A DNA stretch of 34,272 nt from an uncultured Candidatus Saccharibacteria bacterium (GTDB taxonomy: Bacteria > Patescibacteriota > Saccharimonadia > Saccharimonadales > Saccharimonadaceae): contig CALXTC010000012.1 in assembly GCA_944391325.1 (NCBI GenBank), positions 1 to 34,272 of the forward strand. Direction: 5' to 3'. Position 1 is the first letter of the stretch. Each line of letters starts with the position of its first letter. The notes beneath the pieces are model-generated. The model searched no databases and had not been told where the DNA came from. It saw only the letters and a program-made list of their open reading frames with translations. Positions 4,021-31,324 of the stretch are shown here, in pieces. A program made the position numbers and the translations under genes.

Positions 4021-7000
4021 CTAATGTAGATTAATAGTAAACTCATCCGAATTTTGCTGAGTTCGTGGCCGTTGTACCAGCTGGGCTGGTGGGATGGGTG
4101 ACTGTGGATACATCGCCGCCTGAGTACCTTGATTTACGGTTTGGCGAGACCATTCAGTACCGTTATTAACAGGAGCGATAACTGGCTGAGCTGGCTGCGA
4201 ATTAACCGGTTGAGCAGCAACTGATTGCTGTTGTGGTGGCAAACCAATATCCCCTAGCTGATCCAATGGTGGCAAGGGTGGCAGCTGCTCTGACTGGCTT
4301 GACGTCACGACGGCTGGATGTGAAGCTGGCGTCTGACTGGGTTGTTGCGATACATTACCCAATGATGGCGCTGGCATAGCCTTATTATCAGCAGGCTTAC
4401 CGTTAGCCGATGACACTTGCCCACCAGAAGCCAAGCTCTGACGCTTAGCCAGCCAATTATCAATAAACGAATTGCTAGACGCACCACCTGATTGACCACC
4501 GCCAGCATTAGTCGGCTTTGGTGTGACAACTGGGTTGGCTGGTTTACGCGTCGGGGTCGGTTTGACAGTTGCCCAGCGTCGCTGAATCTCCGCCTCGACC
4601 TCCGCCCGTGGACGACCATATTTAGACGCCGATAACTTTTCTAGGGCCTTACCCAGCTCTGGATTCGGCTCGGCCATTAATGGCGGTAACTGCATTGAGA
4701 ATGGCGAGGTTGGCGAGCCGTTAATTAACATCTTGACGGCGGCGGTGTAGTTAGGCATAAACAGCAGATCCTCAGCCTGAAAAACTGGCTGGAACATTTT
4801 AACAATATCCTCAACATCATCAGTACCGACACGACCAATAACATAGGTGCCAACGTTGCCGTGCACTGCCCCACGAATCTTGTCGATTAGCTGGCCCATA
4901 AACTGGTTAGCAACAATTAGATTCAGGCGATATTTACGCGCCTCGGACAAAATCGATTCAAATGAGTCGGTGGCGAAGTTCTGGAACTCGTCGACAAATA
5001 GACAGAAATCCTGACGTTGATTCTCGGGGATATTAGTTCTGGACATGGCTGCTGCCTGAAACTTCATGACGAACACCATACCTAGCAATTTAGACGACAT
5101 TTCACCCAGCTTGCCCTTAGACAGGTTAACCAACAGAATCTTTCGATTATCCATAATTTCCCGTAGATTGAGCGTCGAGTGCGTCTGCCCCAAGATGTTA
5201 TTCATCATGGTATTTTCAAAATCTGCCCACTTTGACACCACCCAGCTAGTCACCTCACCGGCATCGTTGGAACGTTGGGAGTTCGGCCATTCCTTAGTCC
5301 AGAAATCGATCGCCCGTTGATTTGTCAAATATTTAATTTTTGGCTTGGCAAAATCTGGGTCATTTAGCAACTTAGGAATGTCCATAAAGGTGCCACCACC
5401 CGGATCGGCCATGGTCAGCAACGCCGCATAGCGAACAATATTGGCCATACGTGGTCCAACAATACCCTGCCGATTAGGGTCGTATAGCGAATAGAACATG
5501 TTGATAGTTTCCGAAACGATGTAGTCCTTGGTTCGATCGGGGTCTGGGTCATTCGGATCGATCTCGAATAAGTTCATACCAATCGGATGTTCCATGTCGG
5601 CTGGGTTAAAGTAAATAATGTCGTTAACCCGTTCCTTTGGCACAATCTGCAAAAGTTTTTCGACCGTATCGCCGTGGGGATCGATAAAGGCAAATCCCCT
5701 GCCCTCCATCATATCCTGCAAGGCTAGTCGCTCTAGAAAAACCGACTTACCCATACCAGTAGAACCCATCACATAAACGTGACGACGCCGATCATCAGTC
5801 GATAGACGAATTGGCTTTTTGACTCCGCGAAAGACGTTATAGCCCAACAATAGTCCTTCTGTCATCTGTTGGGTTGGGCCATCTACCTCTTTGAATGTTT
5901 GCCGCTCCACCTGTGACGACGGGATATTAGTCTGATTCGGCAAATGGAATATAGAGGCTAATTCAACAGTATTCAATATGTCAGATGAGCGCTCCGCCGG
6001 AAAGAAACGCATAATATATGACGTAACGAATTCCTCAATGTTATTCGTGGGCGTAAACTTAAAGCCATTGCCCGTTGGGGAATTAAATAGCGAAAACGCT
6101 GATTGCAGACTAGTCAGTAGAGCCTGCGATCGCCCCGCGCTAGGCGTCGAGGCAATTAATCGAATCATCACCTCATAACCAGCATGGCGAGCCTTTTCCT
6201 CCATGGCCTCTACCCTAGTTTGATCCGTGCCACTCAACTGCTTAATCTCATTTTCGCGGTCTGAGGCCGTTGGTGGTTTCCATAGCGCCTCTAGAATCTG
6301 GGCGAAATAGCCCCAATCTGGGCCACGCCGACCACTACTGGCACCCTTTTTGCCATCGCGAATATCCTGAACCCGATCCTCAATTTTGCGTGTCCAACCA
6401 TCACGAGCCGGACGCAACAAAATCTGCACCCCCACACCATCACCACGCTGCGCCATGGATAAAGCATTTAGAATCGCCCCCATCGCATCGCGCTTAGTGT
6501 CCTTATATGTAGCAATCGGAAACGTGTATGGCTTAGTTAGAGTTAACTCACCACCGAGCGTACCACTAATCTTGCCTGCTCGACTAAATAGATTGACCTC
6601 CTCAACCTCCTCGAGCCTGGCAGTTGGATAGGCTGCCATGATAGCCTGCTTGACATTGTCCAATAACACATACGGTACGGCCGTGTAGTAATGAATTAGT
6701 CCATCATTAGCAACTATTTCAAAGGTAATGTGCCGTTGACCATATAGACGACTATGAAAGCCCTTGGTAGCCGTGCTAGCAATAACGTTGTACATCGTCT
6801 GTGCCTGCGAAACAGTTTCGTCGGTAATGTCACGAATATCCCGGCTACCAACCTCCTTGTCATCACTACTGGGTGGCAGATGAATCATAATCTGCACCAT
6901 CTTTAGAGCGCGTTCGTAATTTTTTTGCTCACGAGCCTTTTTGCGGAAAGCCGTATAGGCAATCACAACAATAGTTGCCAGTACCGCTATGACAACCAGA

Positions 7001-7038
7001 ACGCTGATTAGCGATATAACTATACCTCCAACATTCAT
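4021..7038 (-). CDS. Membrane-tethered DUF8128/VirD4-like ATPase
   Basis: Large (1005 aa) ATPase of the HerA/VirD4-TraG type found widely in CPR genomes beside type IV secretion or pilus-like genes. One transmembrane helix spans about residues 7-29, so the bulk is cytoplasmic. A mixed alpha/beta region follows, matching what I recall as the DUF8128 arrangement. The motor domain has Walker A GSTGMGKS at about residue 423, FIDPHGDT shortly after, and Walker B LFVDEFQNF at about 679. From about residue 820 the protein is a long Pro/Gln/Ser/Asn-rich, probably disordered tail ending DEFTINLH. The ATG at 7038 has only a weak Shine-Dalgarno. The upstream small gene (7084-7515) runs in the same direction and is a usual companion in this group. 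Role (inferred): DNA or protein translocation across the cell envelope; the substrate is unknown. Confidence 0.8.
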   Translation of the reverse strand: MNVGGIVISLISVLVVIAVLATIVVIAYTAFRKKAREQKNYERALKMVQIMIHLPPSSDDKEVGSRDIRDITDETVSQAQTMYNVIASTATKGFHSRLYGQRHITFEIVANDGLIHYYTAVPYVLLDNVKQAIMAAYPTARLEEVEEVNLFSRAGKISGTLGGELTLTKPYTFPIATYKDTKRDAMGAILNALSMAQRGDGVGVQILLRPARDGWTRKIEDRVQDIRDGKKGASSGRRGPDWGYFAQILEALWKPPTASDRENEIKQLSGTDQTRVEAMEEKARHAGYEVMIRLIASTPSAGRSQALLTSLQSAFSLFNSPTGNGFKFTPTNNIEEFVTSYIMRFFPAERSSDILNTVELASIFHLPNQTNIPSSQVERQTFKEVDGPTQQMTEGLLLGYNVFRGVKKPIRLSTDDRRRHVYVMGSTGMGKSVFLERLALQDMMEGRGFAFIDPHGDTVEKLLQIVPKERVNDIIYFNPADMEHPIGMNLFEIDPNDPDPDRTKDYIVSETINMFYSLYDPNRQGIVGPRMANIVRYAALLTMADPGGGTFMDIPKLLNDPDFAKPKIKYLTNQRAIDFWTKEWPNSQRSNDAGEVTSWVVSKWADFENTMMNNILGQTHSTLNLREIMDNRKILLVNLSKGKLGEMSSKLLGMVFVMKFQAAAMSRTNIPENQRQDFCLFVDEFQNFATDSFESILSEARKYRLNLIVANQFMGQLIDKIRGAVHGNVGTYVIGRVGTDDVEDIVKMFQPVFQAEDLLFMPNYTAAVKMLINGSPTSPFSMQLPPLMAEPNPELGKALEKLSASKYGRPRAEVEAEIQRRWATVKPTPTRKPANPVVTPKPTNAGGGQSGGASSNSFIDNWLAKRQSLASGGQVSSANGKPADNKAMPAPSLGNVSQQPSQTPASHPAVVTSSQSEQLPPLPPLDQLGDIGLPPQQQSVAAQPVNSQPAQPVIAPVNNGTEWSRQTVNQGTQAAMYPQSPIPPAQLVQRPRTQQNSDEFTINLH

Positions 7039-7083: not shown

Positions 7084-7515
7084 TTATTTATCCTTCTTGC
7101 CCACTATTTTACCATAACGAGTCTTTAAATAATCACGCATAATCATGGCAATTTGGTGCGCCAGCTCGTATGGATCATCCTTGTCCTTGGCGATAACGGC
7201 CTGAGCCTTAGCCACCCAGGCGCGTTCGATATCATCAGCGTCAACAGACGGAGTAGCCACTGGCGTGGTCGACTGTGGCTGAACGGGCGTGGGATTAGGC
7301 GTTGCCGCTGGCATTACCTGGCTTGGTTGAGCCAACTGTTCGGCAATAGCCAGTTGCTCGGCCTGTAATGGTGCCTGATTCAATCGCTCACCATTGTTAA
7401 TCGTTGTAGATGGGTCAACGTTATACTGAGGTAGTTGATTGTTGCCAACCTCAAAATTGCCACCATTCTGTTGTGGTACCTGATTAAAATTCGGCATTCC
7501 TGCACCCGGTTCCAT
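7084..7515 (-). CDS. Small CPR-type protein preceding the VirD4-like ATPase
   Basis: A 143-aa protein in two parts: a low-complexity Gln/Pro/Asn-rich N-terminal half and a compact charged helical C-terminus (AWVAKAQAVIAKDKDDPYE, then a helix ending KTRYGKIVGKKDK). I recall the C-terminal pattern 'AWV.KAK.I...KDDPYE....KADYLK.RY' as frequent in CPR genomes next to this ATPase; its biochemical role is unknown. The frame could extend upstream to about 7572, but the ATG at 7515 is chosen because an extended -10 box (TGGTATAAT) sits 9 bases upstream, implying a leaderless or near-leaderless mRNA. The shared Gln/Pro-rich low complexity with the tail of the neighbouring ATPase suggests the two proteins work together (inference). 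Confidence 0.75.
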   Translation of the reverse strand: MEPGAGMPNFNQVPQQNGGNFEVGNNQLPQYNVDPSTTINNGERLNQAPLQAEQLAIAEQLAQPSQVMPAATPNPTPVQPQSTTPVATPSVDADDIERAWVAKAQAVIAKDKDDPYELAHQIAMIMRDYLKTRYGKIVGKKDK

Positions 7516-7524
7516 TACCCAGTA

Positions 7525-7530
7525 ATTATA
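7525..7530 (-). promoter_or_regulatory. -10 box of the 7515/7038 operon
   Basis: TATAAT on the minus strand preceded by TGG (extended -10), 9 bases before the ATG at 7515. No good -35 is visible. Confidence 0.6.
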
Positions 7531-7609
7531 CCATAACCTAATTGCCAAAATTAACCCGTCAAACAGTATCACTTTAGCCTTAGCAACCCTAGATACACGC
7601 TAAATACGC

Positions 7610-8014
7610 CTACATCTTGCGAATAACATAAGCTGACGCCACCGCTTCGATAGTGGCAACCAGCAACACATCGATAAAGTCAATCCGACCAATAGAGTTT
7701 AGGGAAATCAACATAATTGGTGCCGCCGAAACAATCGCACAGACAGCCAACGTTTTTTGCATAATGCGCTTAGAACGGTCGTCAGTAGTCGTTGTTGGTG
7801 CATGTGAAGGCGCAATTAGATGATAGGCATACCCAAATAGCATTGTGGCCAGCACAATAAGCCCATAAAACAATATATAGATAAGCAATAAGACCAATAG
7901 AATTATTACTGGGCCACCCGTAGAGGGATTAGTCATATTCAGCGTAAAAAACAACGACAGTGCCGCAATGACCACTGCCAAAAATGCGCCAATTGCAATA
8001 GTTCGCCGTCGCAT
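7610..8014 (-). CDS. Hypothetical four-helix membrane protein
   Basis: I do not recognise this family. The 134-aa product has four hydrophobic stretches: after MRRRTIAIG, around GGPVIILLVLLLIYILF and the following VLATMLFGYAY, then KTLAVCAIVSAAPIMLI, then IDVLLVATIEAVASAYV. A short polar loop (HAPTTTTDDRSKR) lies in the middle and the protein ends in RKM. The N-terminal MRRR suggests an N-in topology. ATGs at 8014 and 8035 and a TTG at 8047 are possible starts. I prefer 8014 because TATGTT lies 8 bases upstream, as in other leaderless genes here, but this is weak. It lies downstream of nothing obvious and upstream of the ATPase pair, in the same direction. Confidence 0.6.
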   Translation of the reverse strand: MRRRTIAIGAFLAVVIAALSLFFTLNMTNPSTGGPVIILLVLLLIYILFYGLIVLATMLFGYAYHLIAPSHAPTTTTDDRSKRIMQKTLAVCAIVSAAPIMLISLNSIGRIDFIDVLLVATIEAVASAYVIRKM

Positions 8015-8065
8015 ATACCAATAACATAATAACATAAGCAAAAACAAACCAAATCTAATTTAAGA

Positions 8066-8440
8066 GAGGCTGCCCAGCATCATTGGCAGTTGCGAAGCCT
8101 AAATGCGGCAAACTCATCCGCCACCAAAAATACAAAGTACAGGGCGCGAGTCGCGGTCGCCTTTGAGGCTGGACAAGCCTCGACTGACCGCTCCCATTCG
8201 GGAGCATATTTAGTGACAGCGGAGCTGGTCGTAACAATATCAATCAAAGATACTTTACTGACTTACGCTCAACGCCTTCGTGACAGAGTGGTAGCTGTAG
8301 CACTACGCTACGAATATAGTAAAACTACTAATGTAGACGAACTAGGCGGCAGCTACCATGCCTGTCACGAACAATCAACCGTGGATAGACGACTTATGTG
8401 TCTGCGCCTTCACTTCAGTTGATCGGTCTGTTGCGACGGT
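8066..8440 (+). ncRNA. Candidate structured non-coding RNA
   Basis: A GC-richer island between AT-rich flanks, packed with consecutive hairpins: AGGCT/AGCCT (8067-8071/8096-8100), GCGG/CCGC (8105-8108/8118-8121), GAGGCT/AGCCTC (8165-8170/8176-8181) and GCTCCC/GGGAGC (8190-8195/8200-8205). Best is a long stem in which GTGACAG (8280-8286) pairs with CTGTCAC (8362-8368) and GTGGTAGCTG (8288-8297) pairs with CAGCTACCAT (8350-8359), enclosing two smaller hairpins (TAGC/GCTA and TAGTA/TACTA). One stem pair is G-U only on the plus strand, which favours that strand. Open frames of about 110 codons (+, TTG start) and about 58 codons (-) exist, but neither has a ribosome site or a known family. No promoter or terminator is clear, so the ends are approximate. 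Confidence 0.5.
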
Positions 8441-9166
8441 ATCCAAAAGGTGCGACAAATTGGCCTCATGCCATTTTGTTATGTAGACCCGACTACAACA
8501 TTTTGTCAGTGTTTGTTTTTGAATAGAAAGAACGAGCTTTCGGACTATTTGATATTTGTGAATTTCTTTTTGTCTTTCAAGCTTGACTACAGCATATCAA
8601 ACCATAAGTCATATGTCAATAATTTTTAATGGTTATTGCGTTGTATTTTTTACTGTCTATATGTAATGTATTGATACCTATTTACGTACCGTTGTTATAA
8701 ATATGTGTTGTATTTTTTGATATTATCTTTTGTTTTATTGCCACAACAATGGCCTAAAAGTCTTAATTCTTTATCACACGAGTTCTTAAATGAACTTAGA
8801 TCTGCCGAAAATTATTGCTGTTTGTTGATATTTCAACTACATATTTTAATGTCTAATCACACAACTTCGCGGGGTTTCGCTAGACCTCACCGGACATAAA
8901 ACGATCCTAGTGAATCGTTGGTTGCCGCAAATGGGCAAACTACCTTGCAGTGCCTAGGCCTATTAAGACGCAGCTAGAGTCCCGTTTCATAATCTTTCTG
9001 AATTCGAACGTTAATAATGAACCAAATTCCACGCCCAGACTCAGCAATTCGTTTGCCCTACCCGTTCACCAATTTGCACAGCAGTCAAATGCAATAAACC
9101 TACATACTTGATTCGTTTTATCCATCACTTTGCGCAATTTCAAGCACGTAAAATTCCAAGCTCAAC
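8441..9166. other. Mostly AT-rich non-coding stretch with a second hairpin-rich patch
   Basis: 8441-8870 is AT-rich with no supported gene. Around 8871-8961 composition becomes more balanced and small hairpins appear: AACGAT/ATCGTT (8900-8905/8914-8919) and TTGCC/GGCAA (8922-8926/8934-8938), plus the palindrome GCCTAGGC near 8952. This may be the other end of the structured element at 8066-8440 or a separate RNA. A GTG-started 64-codon frame at 8705-8899 has no ribosome site and is not called. Confidence 0.35.
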
Positions 9167-9199
9167 AAAAAACGGCCCTCTGCGAGAATACGGGTCGTT
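9167..9199 (-). terminator. Intrinsic terminator of the small RNA unit
   Basis: On the minus strand AACGACCC pairs with GGGCCGTT (one mismatch) around a 13-base loop and is followed by a T-run. Confidence 0.65.
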
Positions 9200-9287
9200 C
9201 TATGGTAGATTTTGGGTTTGTGTTGTTTTGTATAATGTTTGTTTTTTGTGTGCGCGGTTCATGAATACATTTTTTATTCATCAACCA
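9167..9287 (-). ncRNA. Candidate small RNA (or very short mRNA) with own promoter and terminator
   Basis: A complete short transcription unit on the minus strand: promoter at 9293-9321, predicted start about 9287, and an intrinsic terminator at 9167-9199 (AACGACCC/GGGCCGTT followed by T-run). The 5' part can form an ATGAATA/TATTCAT hairpin (9261-9267/9275-9281). An ATG at 9281, five or six bases after the predicted start, opens a 39-codon frame, but that frame runs through the terminator stem, so a coding role is doubtful. It lies downstream of tmRNA in the same direction. Function unknown. Confidence 0.5.
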
Positions 9288-9292
9288 CCACT

Positions 9293-9321
9293 ATAATATA
9301 TCACCATTGCGCTAGTGTCAA
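9293..9321 (-). promoter_or_regulatory. Promoter of the small RNA unit
   Basis: Minus-strand TTGACA, 17-base spacer, TATTAT: a near-consensus sigma70-type promoter in a region without called genes. Confidence 0.7.
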
Positions 9322-9442
9322 CCATGTATAATGGTATTTTTTACCACATTGAACAACTATGTGGAAAATTGCTCTCCCCACTATCCGCATAGAAAATATT
9401 CACCTATTGGTGTGCAAATTGATAATGTTCCTAAATAATTTC

Positions 9443-9853
9443 TGGTGGAGCTGGCGGGAACCGACCCCGCGTCCGCATGGTAACTATCCAATCATCTACG
9501 AAGCCTATCCAGTTTCAATTTTTAACGTCGTAACCAACTCTACACAGACCCTGGCAAAGAAAAGTGACTCGACGGACACACACTATATTTCAGCTATCGA
9601 GCGTGTGCAGCACGACAACCTAGTCCGATACATATGACACCTGAAACGATCTATCGCACGTCAATCGCCAGATGGGCTGCAATTAAAAACTAAGCAGCAA
9701 CAGCCATTGCCATAGCCTTAGGAGCAAAAGCATCCTTTACGCTAGCGACAAAGGCCTGCAAACGTGATTTTGCATTTATTTATGACTGTAAAGTAGTCAA
9801 CTACTCGCCGATTGAATTGTTAATGTCCATCCGTCGAAGCAAAATTCAGCCCC
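9443..9853 (-). ncRNA. ssrA: tmRNA (SsrA) with a 27-codon tag
   Basis: Transfer-messenger RNA rescues stalled ribosomes with SmpB and adds a degradation tag. The 3' end on the minus strand is tRNA-like: GGACGCGGGGTCGGTTCCCG, the T arm, then CCAGCTCCACCA with encoded CCA at 9443. The 5' end GGGGCTG (9847-9853) pairs with CAGCTCC to form the acceptor stem, and TTCGACGGATGGACA follows as in the tRNA-like D region. The tag frame runs 9773-9690: a GCA (Ala) resume codon, the tag beginning AKSRLQAF and ending AMAMAVAA, then TAG. The hydrophobic Ala-Val-Ala-Ala end is typical of a protease tag, but 27 codons is longer than the 8-15 usual in model bacteria. Total length about 411 nt. The window contains no smpB. 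Confidence 0.93.
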
Positions 9854-30361: not shown

Positions 30362-31324
30362 ATGGCAGAAGAAAACAAAAATGTTCAAGGCTATTATCTA
30401 GCTGATTTAATTATGGATTTTATCGAATATATCGAAATTGAAAAGGGACGTTCTATCCGCACTGCCGAAAACTACCATTTATATATGGATAGACTGGTTG
30501 AGTTTGCCGGCGACATCCCTGTCAGCCAAATTACCGATGAGCTTGTTCGCAAGTATCGCCTGTGGCTAAATCGGTACATCGACACCCAGGGGCGTGAACT
30601 GTCAATAATTACCCAGAGTTATCACCTAATCGCTCTGCGCAGCTTTCTGAAATATTGTGGTCAACGCGATATTGACACCCTGGATGCTGACCGCATTAAC
30701 CTGCCCAAGGTGGCTAAAAAGCAGGTCTCCTTCCTTTTGGCTGAGGAGGTGGCCCGTATGATGGATGCCGTAGATTTAGATGATCCCAATGGGCTACGCG
30801 ACAAAGCCATTCTAGAACTACTCTTCTCGGGTGGGATGCGTGTCAGCGAGCTGTGTAGTCTGAACCGGGAACAGGTTAACCTAGATCGTCGAGAATTCAC
30901 TATTCGCGGTAAGGGTAATAAGGACCGGCCAATCTTCATCAGCAAAGCCGCCGCTGCCGCCGTCGGCGATTATTTAAATTCACGCAATGACAACCTAAAA
31001 CCATTGTTTCTAAATAACTCTCGTAATATTCACAAAGATTTAGATGATAGCGACGGGGTTGACGCCAGTGAATCTCGGCGTTTAACCCCCCGTTCTATTC
31101 AACGGATTGTCACCAAATATACTCGATTAGCTGGCATTACTAAGCACGTAACGCCACACACATTGCGACACTCCTTTGCGACTGACCTATTGATGAACGG
31201 AGCCGACCTAAGATCCGTTCAGTCAATGTTGGGCCACAGTAATATCGCCACCACCCAAATTTATACCCATGTCACCGACCCCCATCTTAAGGAAGTTCAC
31301 GAACAATTCCAAAGCGACATATAA
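30362..31324 (+). CDS. XerC/XerD-type tyrosine recombinase
   Basis: 320 aa, typical of Xer recombinases that resolve chromosome dimers at dif. The N-terminal SAM-like core-binding domain (FIEYIEIEKGRSIRTAENYHLYMDRL) precedes the catalytic domain, with Arg in LFSGGMRVSELCSLNREQV, Lys in IRGKGNKDRPIF, HTLRHSFATDLL (His, Arg), LGHSNIATTQIYTHV (His and the nucleophile Tyr). All catalytic residues are present. An insertion rich in Asp/Ser (NIHKDLDDSDGVDASESRR) lies before the last catalytic block. It stands alone with no nearby mobile-element features, so a chromosomal dimer resolvase is more likely than an integrase. XerC and XerD cannot be told apart here. Confidence 0.93.
   Translation: MAEENKNVQGYYLADLIMDFIEYIEIEKGRSIRTAENYHLYMDRLVEFAGDIPVSQITDELVRKYRLWLNRYIDTQGRELSIITQSYHLIALRSFLKYCGQRDIDTLDADRINLPKVAKKQVSFLLAEEVARMMDAVDLDDPNGLRDKAILELLFSGGMRVSELCSLNREQVNLDRREFTIRGKGNKDRPIFISKAAAAAVGDYLNSRNDNLKPLFLNNSRNIHKDLDDSDGVDASESRRLTPRSIQRIVTKYTRLAGITKHVTPHTLRHSFATDLLMNGADLRSVQSMLGHSNIATTQIYTHVTDPHLKEVHEQFQSDI

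Follow-up and report, generated by a model that had tools for sequence, protein, structure and literature searches.

The window analysed here is the whole of a 34,272-nucleotide stretch of contig CALXTC010000012.1 (assembly GCA_944391325.1) from an uncultured Candidatus Saccharibacteria bacterium. It includes a hairpin-rich stretch that is predicted to be a structured RNA gene on the minus strand, lying between tmRNA and a protein-coding operon, and the relevant features are as follows.

4021..7038, minus strand: VirD4/TraG-like ATPase, the third gene of the neighbouring operon (Pfam T4SS-DNA_transf)
7084..7572, minus strand: hypothetical protein with a W(V/I)xKAK-type C-terminal motif, the next gene after that of the membrane protein and syntenic in homologs
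7610..8014, minus strand: membrane protein of 134 aa with four hydrophobic segments by eye; a TATTAT-like -10 box lies just upstream, so it is presumably leaderless
8060..8584, minus strand: predicted noncoding RNA, long form, ~520 nt, from homologs and conserved blocks, with the 5' end placed from the promoter and the 3' end from the end of helix E
8591..8619, minus strand: predicted RNA promoter, TTGACA, a 17-nt spacer and a TG-extended TATGCT, a consensus match that is also seen upstream of the homologous loci
9443..9853, minus strand: tmRNA, the upstream neighbour in the window's family (Rfam search)

A preliminary description of this DNA had proposed an unidentified structured RNA here, and this is borne out by covariation, by deep conservation, by a dedicated promoter and, in short-form relatives, by a terminator. 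Its interval of 8066-8440 missed the 5' part, as the transcript should start near 8584. The statement that the element is not RNase P, tmRNA or a tRNA stands, all of these being located elsewhere in the window. The G+C island that it described is clear on one side only, the element being at ~0.45-0.50 against 0.27-0.33 on the right but 0.42-0.43 in the left flank.

A second putative small RNA lies just downstream of tmRNA (9160-9330, minus strand), with a TTGACA-17-TATTAT promoter, an AU-looped hairpin, an unstructured CAACA-rich stretch and a GC hairpin with a T run (loop CTCGCAG). It is present in at least 10 relatives at 69-82% identity, in some of which it is inverted relative to tmRNA.

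The RNA is assigned to the minus strand because a conserved promoter is found there and because the aligned helices have an excess of G.U pairs over A.C cells, an A.C cell on the minus strand being a would-be G.U pair on the opposite strand. The strict pattern TTGAC[ACT]-17-TAnnnT occurs upstream of the RNA, on the RNA strand, at 80 of 84 homologous loci, while the reverse strand has it at 5 and shuffled sequence at 1.15 of the 84. On the minus strand there are 75 G.U pairs versus 15 A.C cells in the helices of the long form, and 69 versus 32 in those of a short form described below. The plus strand had been favoured in the preliminary description on the strength of one G-U pair; that reading is wrong, and is ruled out by the position of the promoter and by these counts. 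A hairpin resembling an intrinsic terminator lies between the RNA and the next gene at 33 of 59 short-form loci (3.3 after shuffling), and none is visible 3' of the long form in the window. There is normally one copy of the RNA per genome.

The 401-nt stretch 8060-8460 folds with z-scores of -5.2 on the plus strand and -4.7 on the minus strand relative to 100 dinucleotide shuffles, none of which folds as well (0/100); the impression of several strong hairpins was thus sound for either strand. The structural elements, in the order in which they would be transcribed, are the following.

8277..8371, minus strand: helix A, 8371-8362 with 8286-8277 and 8358-8351 with 8296-8289 (9 homologs)
8219..8275, minus strand: helix B, GCG..GAGC with GCTCCGC, 8275-8267 with 8225-8219 (9 homologs)
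8190..8205, minus strand: hairpin C, GCTCCC-loop-GGGAGC, kept order-wide
8183..8189, minus strand: linker GGTCAGT, invariant in alignments of close relatives and nearly so across the order
8067..8180, minus strand: helix E, a long-range helix that closes the 3' domain, 8180-8167 with 8078-8067 (covariation)
8111..8152, minus strand: inner hairpin, ACTCGCGCC, an AT-rich loop and GGCGGATGAGT, with a conserved GA bulge (alignments)

Helix A corresponds to the long stem that had been described as a single helix of 17 pairs. The stem is real, but it is not one perfect helix; it consists of 10 pairs (8277-8286 with 8362-8371) and a further 8-9 pairs (~8289-8297 with 8350-8358) with a small internal loop between them. 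In nine homologs aligned without reference to structure, 97-100% of the cells of its 18 pairs are paired and 8 of the 18 pairs have two-sided changes. Helix B is 100% paired in the nine homologs, and its covariation is weak because it is nearly invariant. The outer stem of hairpin C is 95.5% paired in 54 short-form homologs, and its inner stem covaries. Helix E has two-sided changes at all 13 of its 13 pairs and 92.7% of its cells are paired among 29 distinct sequences, in an alignment that was fitted to the covariance model and is therefore biased toward that model. The inner hairpin with its GA bulge hardly varies, a sign that it may be recognized by a partner.

The covariation score of the whole long-form structure, from that same model-fitted alignment, is 0.528, compared to 0.167 when shuffled and at most 0.094 when slid, and the 54 short-form homologs, again aligned without structure, have 178 cells with two-sided changes versus 54 after shuffling. 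Covariation thus exceeds the shuffled and slid controls, and it is on this basis that we regard the element as a new family of structured noncoding RNA. Open frames of 110 aa (plus strand) and 62 aa (minus strand) in the window could suggest that there is no functional RNA at all, the hairpins being fortuitous or the stretch being protein-coding. However, the plus-strand frame has in-frame stops in the nearest relative, where the neighbouring membrane-protein gene stays open, and the homologs have stops in all frames, so that there is no sign of coding selection on the frames of the island; the strong covariation of both the long and the short forms already refutes either version of this explanation, whose probability is negligible. 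Two tertiary contacts were considered as well. A GGUC/GACC pseudoknot between the linker and the inner domain suits most close relatives but fails in one of them (G035) and does not covary, and is not claimed; kissing of the A-rich 5' loop with the AU-rich loop, judged by eye, has no convincing covariation.

A BLAST search of 61 genomes recovered clear DNA relatives in the genus and the family. A covariance model of the 3' core (R1) matched 29 of 295 family genomes, and most of these loci retain at least one member of the arrangement tmRNA, RNA, membrane-protein gene and WVDKAK gene, with the order unchanged; tmRNA is in the opposite orientation at two of them (L041 and L042). A second model (R2), built from 30 sequences, matched 133 of 295 genomes of the order with one match each. 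Two genomes of the window's family missed by both models (G002 and G012) nonetheless have divergent copies at the syntenic place, in which both arms of the long-range helix have, by eye, changed together. On the RNA strand of these two long forms (L264 and L263, respectively) there is also a further conserved 5' domain, GGCG..GGTAATTTCTAGCCATAAATTACA..TAGGA-TTACCTA..AGCTCCGCC.

The other families across the order have a short form of ~150-250 nt with the same core. Its layout is a promoter; a 5' hairpin, GTAAGT-(A-rich loop)-ACTTAC; hairpin C, here CGCTC..GAGCG and often with a CTAAAG loop; the linker GGTCAGTC; a core hairpin, GGACGGTAAGCGCT-(AU-rich loop)-AGCGGATTTACCGTCC, closed by GCC/GGC; and a terminator. 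A model of this form (R3) had matches in 114 of the 197 genomes in the order with a completeness of at least 90%. Of the 83 without a match, the 20 that are listed are all from the family of the window, which has the long form, and R3 was not built to cover that form. Across the phylum R3 matched 12 of 381 genomes, nine of them in the order, one in another family of the class, and two, weakly, in other classes. A search of the class gave four genomes outside the order, three of them new.

The exact short-form core pattern matched 92 stretches among the genomes of 84,980 species, and the named records are Candidatus Saccharibacteria, Saccharimonadia, Saccharimonadales, Saccharimonas or Patescibacteria, with the remainder called just 'bacterium'; a plasmid search gave no match to the element. 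The predicted RNA occurs in nearly every Saccharibacteria lineage examined, and the element is, as judged from these genomes, no isolated oddity but part of a class-wide conserved family. Four loci in another order of the class (L276-L279; families f39 and f187) have a still longer RNA, the 5' domain of which is of another type, with GGTAGGG repeats around GACGTTCGCCC, and lie near trpS and pheS-pheT.

The element corresponds to no family in Rfam 15, in that cmscan with all families gave no match at gathering thresholds, nor a credible one at E up to 10, where three chance matches with E of 5-9 involve eukaryotic or viral families; the elements of 10 relatives had no match at E up to 1. A literature search, which covered little subscription content, found no description of such an RNA.

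The element shares with bacterial SRP RNA a similar size and with 6S RNA its character as a small RNA with its own promoter and one copy per genome, and both are candidates for a universal housekeeping RNA that it might replace. SRP RNA, universal but apparently missing in these genomes, was not found above cut-off in any of 21 order-level relatives with either the small or the large model (RF00169 and RF01854), with one sub-threshold match, and 6S RNA appears only as weak sub-threshold matches elsewhere in two genomes. Replacement of SRP RNA was rejected, since the M domain of Ffh (PF02978), to which SRP RNA binds, is also undetected in all 21 relatives but is detected in 14 of 14 controls. 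The Rfam models do not give even a weak match to the element, RF00013 (6S RNA) has none at this locus in the window's own genome (G000), and the fold of tandem hairpins and a long-range helix has neither the SRP apical loop nor the 6S central bubble. It is therefore very improbable that the RNA stands in for either. As separate observations, the 21 Saccharibacteria relatives seem either to lack an SRP pathway or to have one that is not recognisable (RF00169, RF01854, PF02978), and the sub-threshold 6S matches (G001:C25 2525-2660 and G038:C51 16563-16716) are possibly the true 6S RNA of these bacteria.

The most persistent neighbour of the RNA is the membrane-protein gene, the open frame of which begins on the same strand, 80-315 nt past the linker, at all 84 of the 84 loci examined, with start codons that were set by a simple rule and are possibly wrong in some cases. 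Proteins of this family carry the motif TNP following hydrophobic segment 1 and SxxQLxxxD toward the C-terminus, and match no Pfam or NCBIfam family. The gene has a -10 box of its own, mostly 12-13 nt before the start codon, at 17 of 25 loci of the window's family compared to 3, 1 and 1 in control windows; outside this family the signal is weaker, at 16 of 59 loci versus 5, 9 and 4 in controls, and a box close to the start codon is also visible in one genome of another order of the class (G533). In the window's family the gene is thus probably transcribed from its own promoter as a leaderless message, and because it has its own -10 box the RNA would not simply be its leader.

The arrangement nevertheless resembles that of a cis-acting leader of the membrane-protein/ATPase operon, either an attenuator, a riboswitch-like element or an autoregulatory site, with the terminator after the core as the expression platform. 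At every locus examined in the order the RNA precedes the membrane-protein gene on the same strand, by 80-310 nt, terminators lie directly 3' of the core at many short-form loci, and in some loci of the window's own family the core is less than ~50 nt from the gene. However, in addition to the -10 box near the start codon, one genome (G805) has the RNA set apart from the membrane-protein gene by a further gene, there is no sign of a conserved pairing in competition with the terminator, and the long form, at ~500 nt and with multiple domains, is large for an attenuator. We consider such a leader to be quite unlikely.

Gene order in the other order of the class is informative in this respect, as the RNA and the membrane-protein gene are together there and are followed by pheS-pheT (G533 and G798), which in G533 separates the pair from the ATPase that lies beyond. 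Together with the -10 box of the membrane-protein gene, the terminators and the gene order in G805, this argues for a free RNA with a tie to the membrane-protein gene that is more persistent than that to the rest of the operon. The linkage could, however, reflect nothing other than stable gene order in a small genome. Each of the ten relatives searched contains at least one additional paralog of the VirD4/TraG-like ATPase (4021-7038, minus strand).

A free RNA might also be a base-pairing regulatory small RNA, in which accessible segments (the A-rich 5' loop, the CUAAAG loop, GGUCAGUC and the AU-rich loop) pair with many messages. The promoter and terminator, the small size in most families and the conserved unpaired segments all suit such a role, as does the A-rich 5' motif, which is present at 38 of 59 short-form loci compared to 8 of 482 background windows. 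Yet most base-pairing small RNAs are conserved less deeply and less uniformly than this one, and the long form has extra domains. Among the RNAs encoded in the window no target for GGUCAGUC was found; its one further perfect complement there, at 31180, lies outside of them. We consider this role unlikely.

We favour the explanation that the element encodes a structured noncoding RNA, present in single copy and standing alone under its own vegetative promoter, which represents a new Saccharibacteria-wide family, and that it most likely acts in trans as a scaffold for which the adjacent four-helix membrane protein is the best candidate partner; taken as a whole, we give this a probability of about 0.5. 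The sequence comparisons show the RNA gene together with its strand, fold, promoter, distribution and linkage. The minus-strand RNA would be transcribed from its vegetative promoter, and we infer that it acts in trans as a folded scaffold within a ribonucleoprotein, in which fixed unpaired nucleotides of hairpin C, of the GGUCAGU linker and of the GA-bulged core hairpin would be offered to a partner. That partner may be the small four-helix membrane protein encoded alongside, in an arrangement like that of OLE RNA and OapA; only gene order points to this protein, and the partnership is possible.

The usual downstream gene of OLE RNA encodes OapA, a four-helix membrane protein that binds OLE RNA (PMC12265935). 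The likeness lies in a stand-alone structured RNA, an adjacent gene for a small membrane protein with four segments and a long form with multiple helices. The Saccharibacteria RNA differs in its length, which is ~520 nt in the family of the window and less in the others, in its lineage, and in the promoter-like box that the protein gene has of its own; Rfam covariance searches gave no OLE RNA match at the element (E up to 10) or in 10 relatives (E up to 1). The raiA motif, or ModT RNA, is likewise described as a structured bacterial noncoding RNA conserved throughout lineages (PMC11706538), but it belongs to other phyla, and the Saccharibacteria RNA has no Rfam match.

The two weak R3 matches in other Patescibacteria classes have E-values of 0.0026 (G500, L257) and 5e-4 (G728, L258), both within chance expectation over 381 genomes, and we treat them as leads and not as claims. 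In both, a terminator-like hairpin directly follows the core; a consensus promoter lies upstream in G728, and the A-rich 5' motif is present in G500. The G500 core lies near an rnpA-like gene and that of G728 near an rny-like gene, and neither has the membrane-protein neighbour, so if they are real copies the pairing with that gene is not universal. It is conceivable, and on balance unlikely, that the RNA belongs to an ancient Patescibacteria-wide class, in which the core hairpin (AAGCGC, an AU-rich loop and GCGGAUUU), together with the promoter, A-rich 5' segment and terminator, would also exist outside Saccharibacteria beside different genes, as in these two candidates, and would form a membrane ribonucleoprotein with the adjacent four-helix protein in Saccharibacteria.

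The family described here is new, whereas its kind, a lineage-wide structured bacterial noncoding RNA, possibly with a membrane-protein partner, has precedents. It is entirely absent from the Rfam release used, to which it would be an addition. Saccharibacteria are ultrasmall epibionts that live on other bacteria and have reduced genomes. The importance of the RNA to them should be testable soon, because Saccharibacteria co-cultures and transposon sequencing exist (PMC12173739). Being near-universal, strongly structured and kept next to a single membrane-protein gene throughout the class, the RNA probably matters to the Saccharibacteria.
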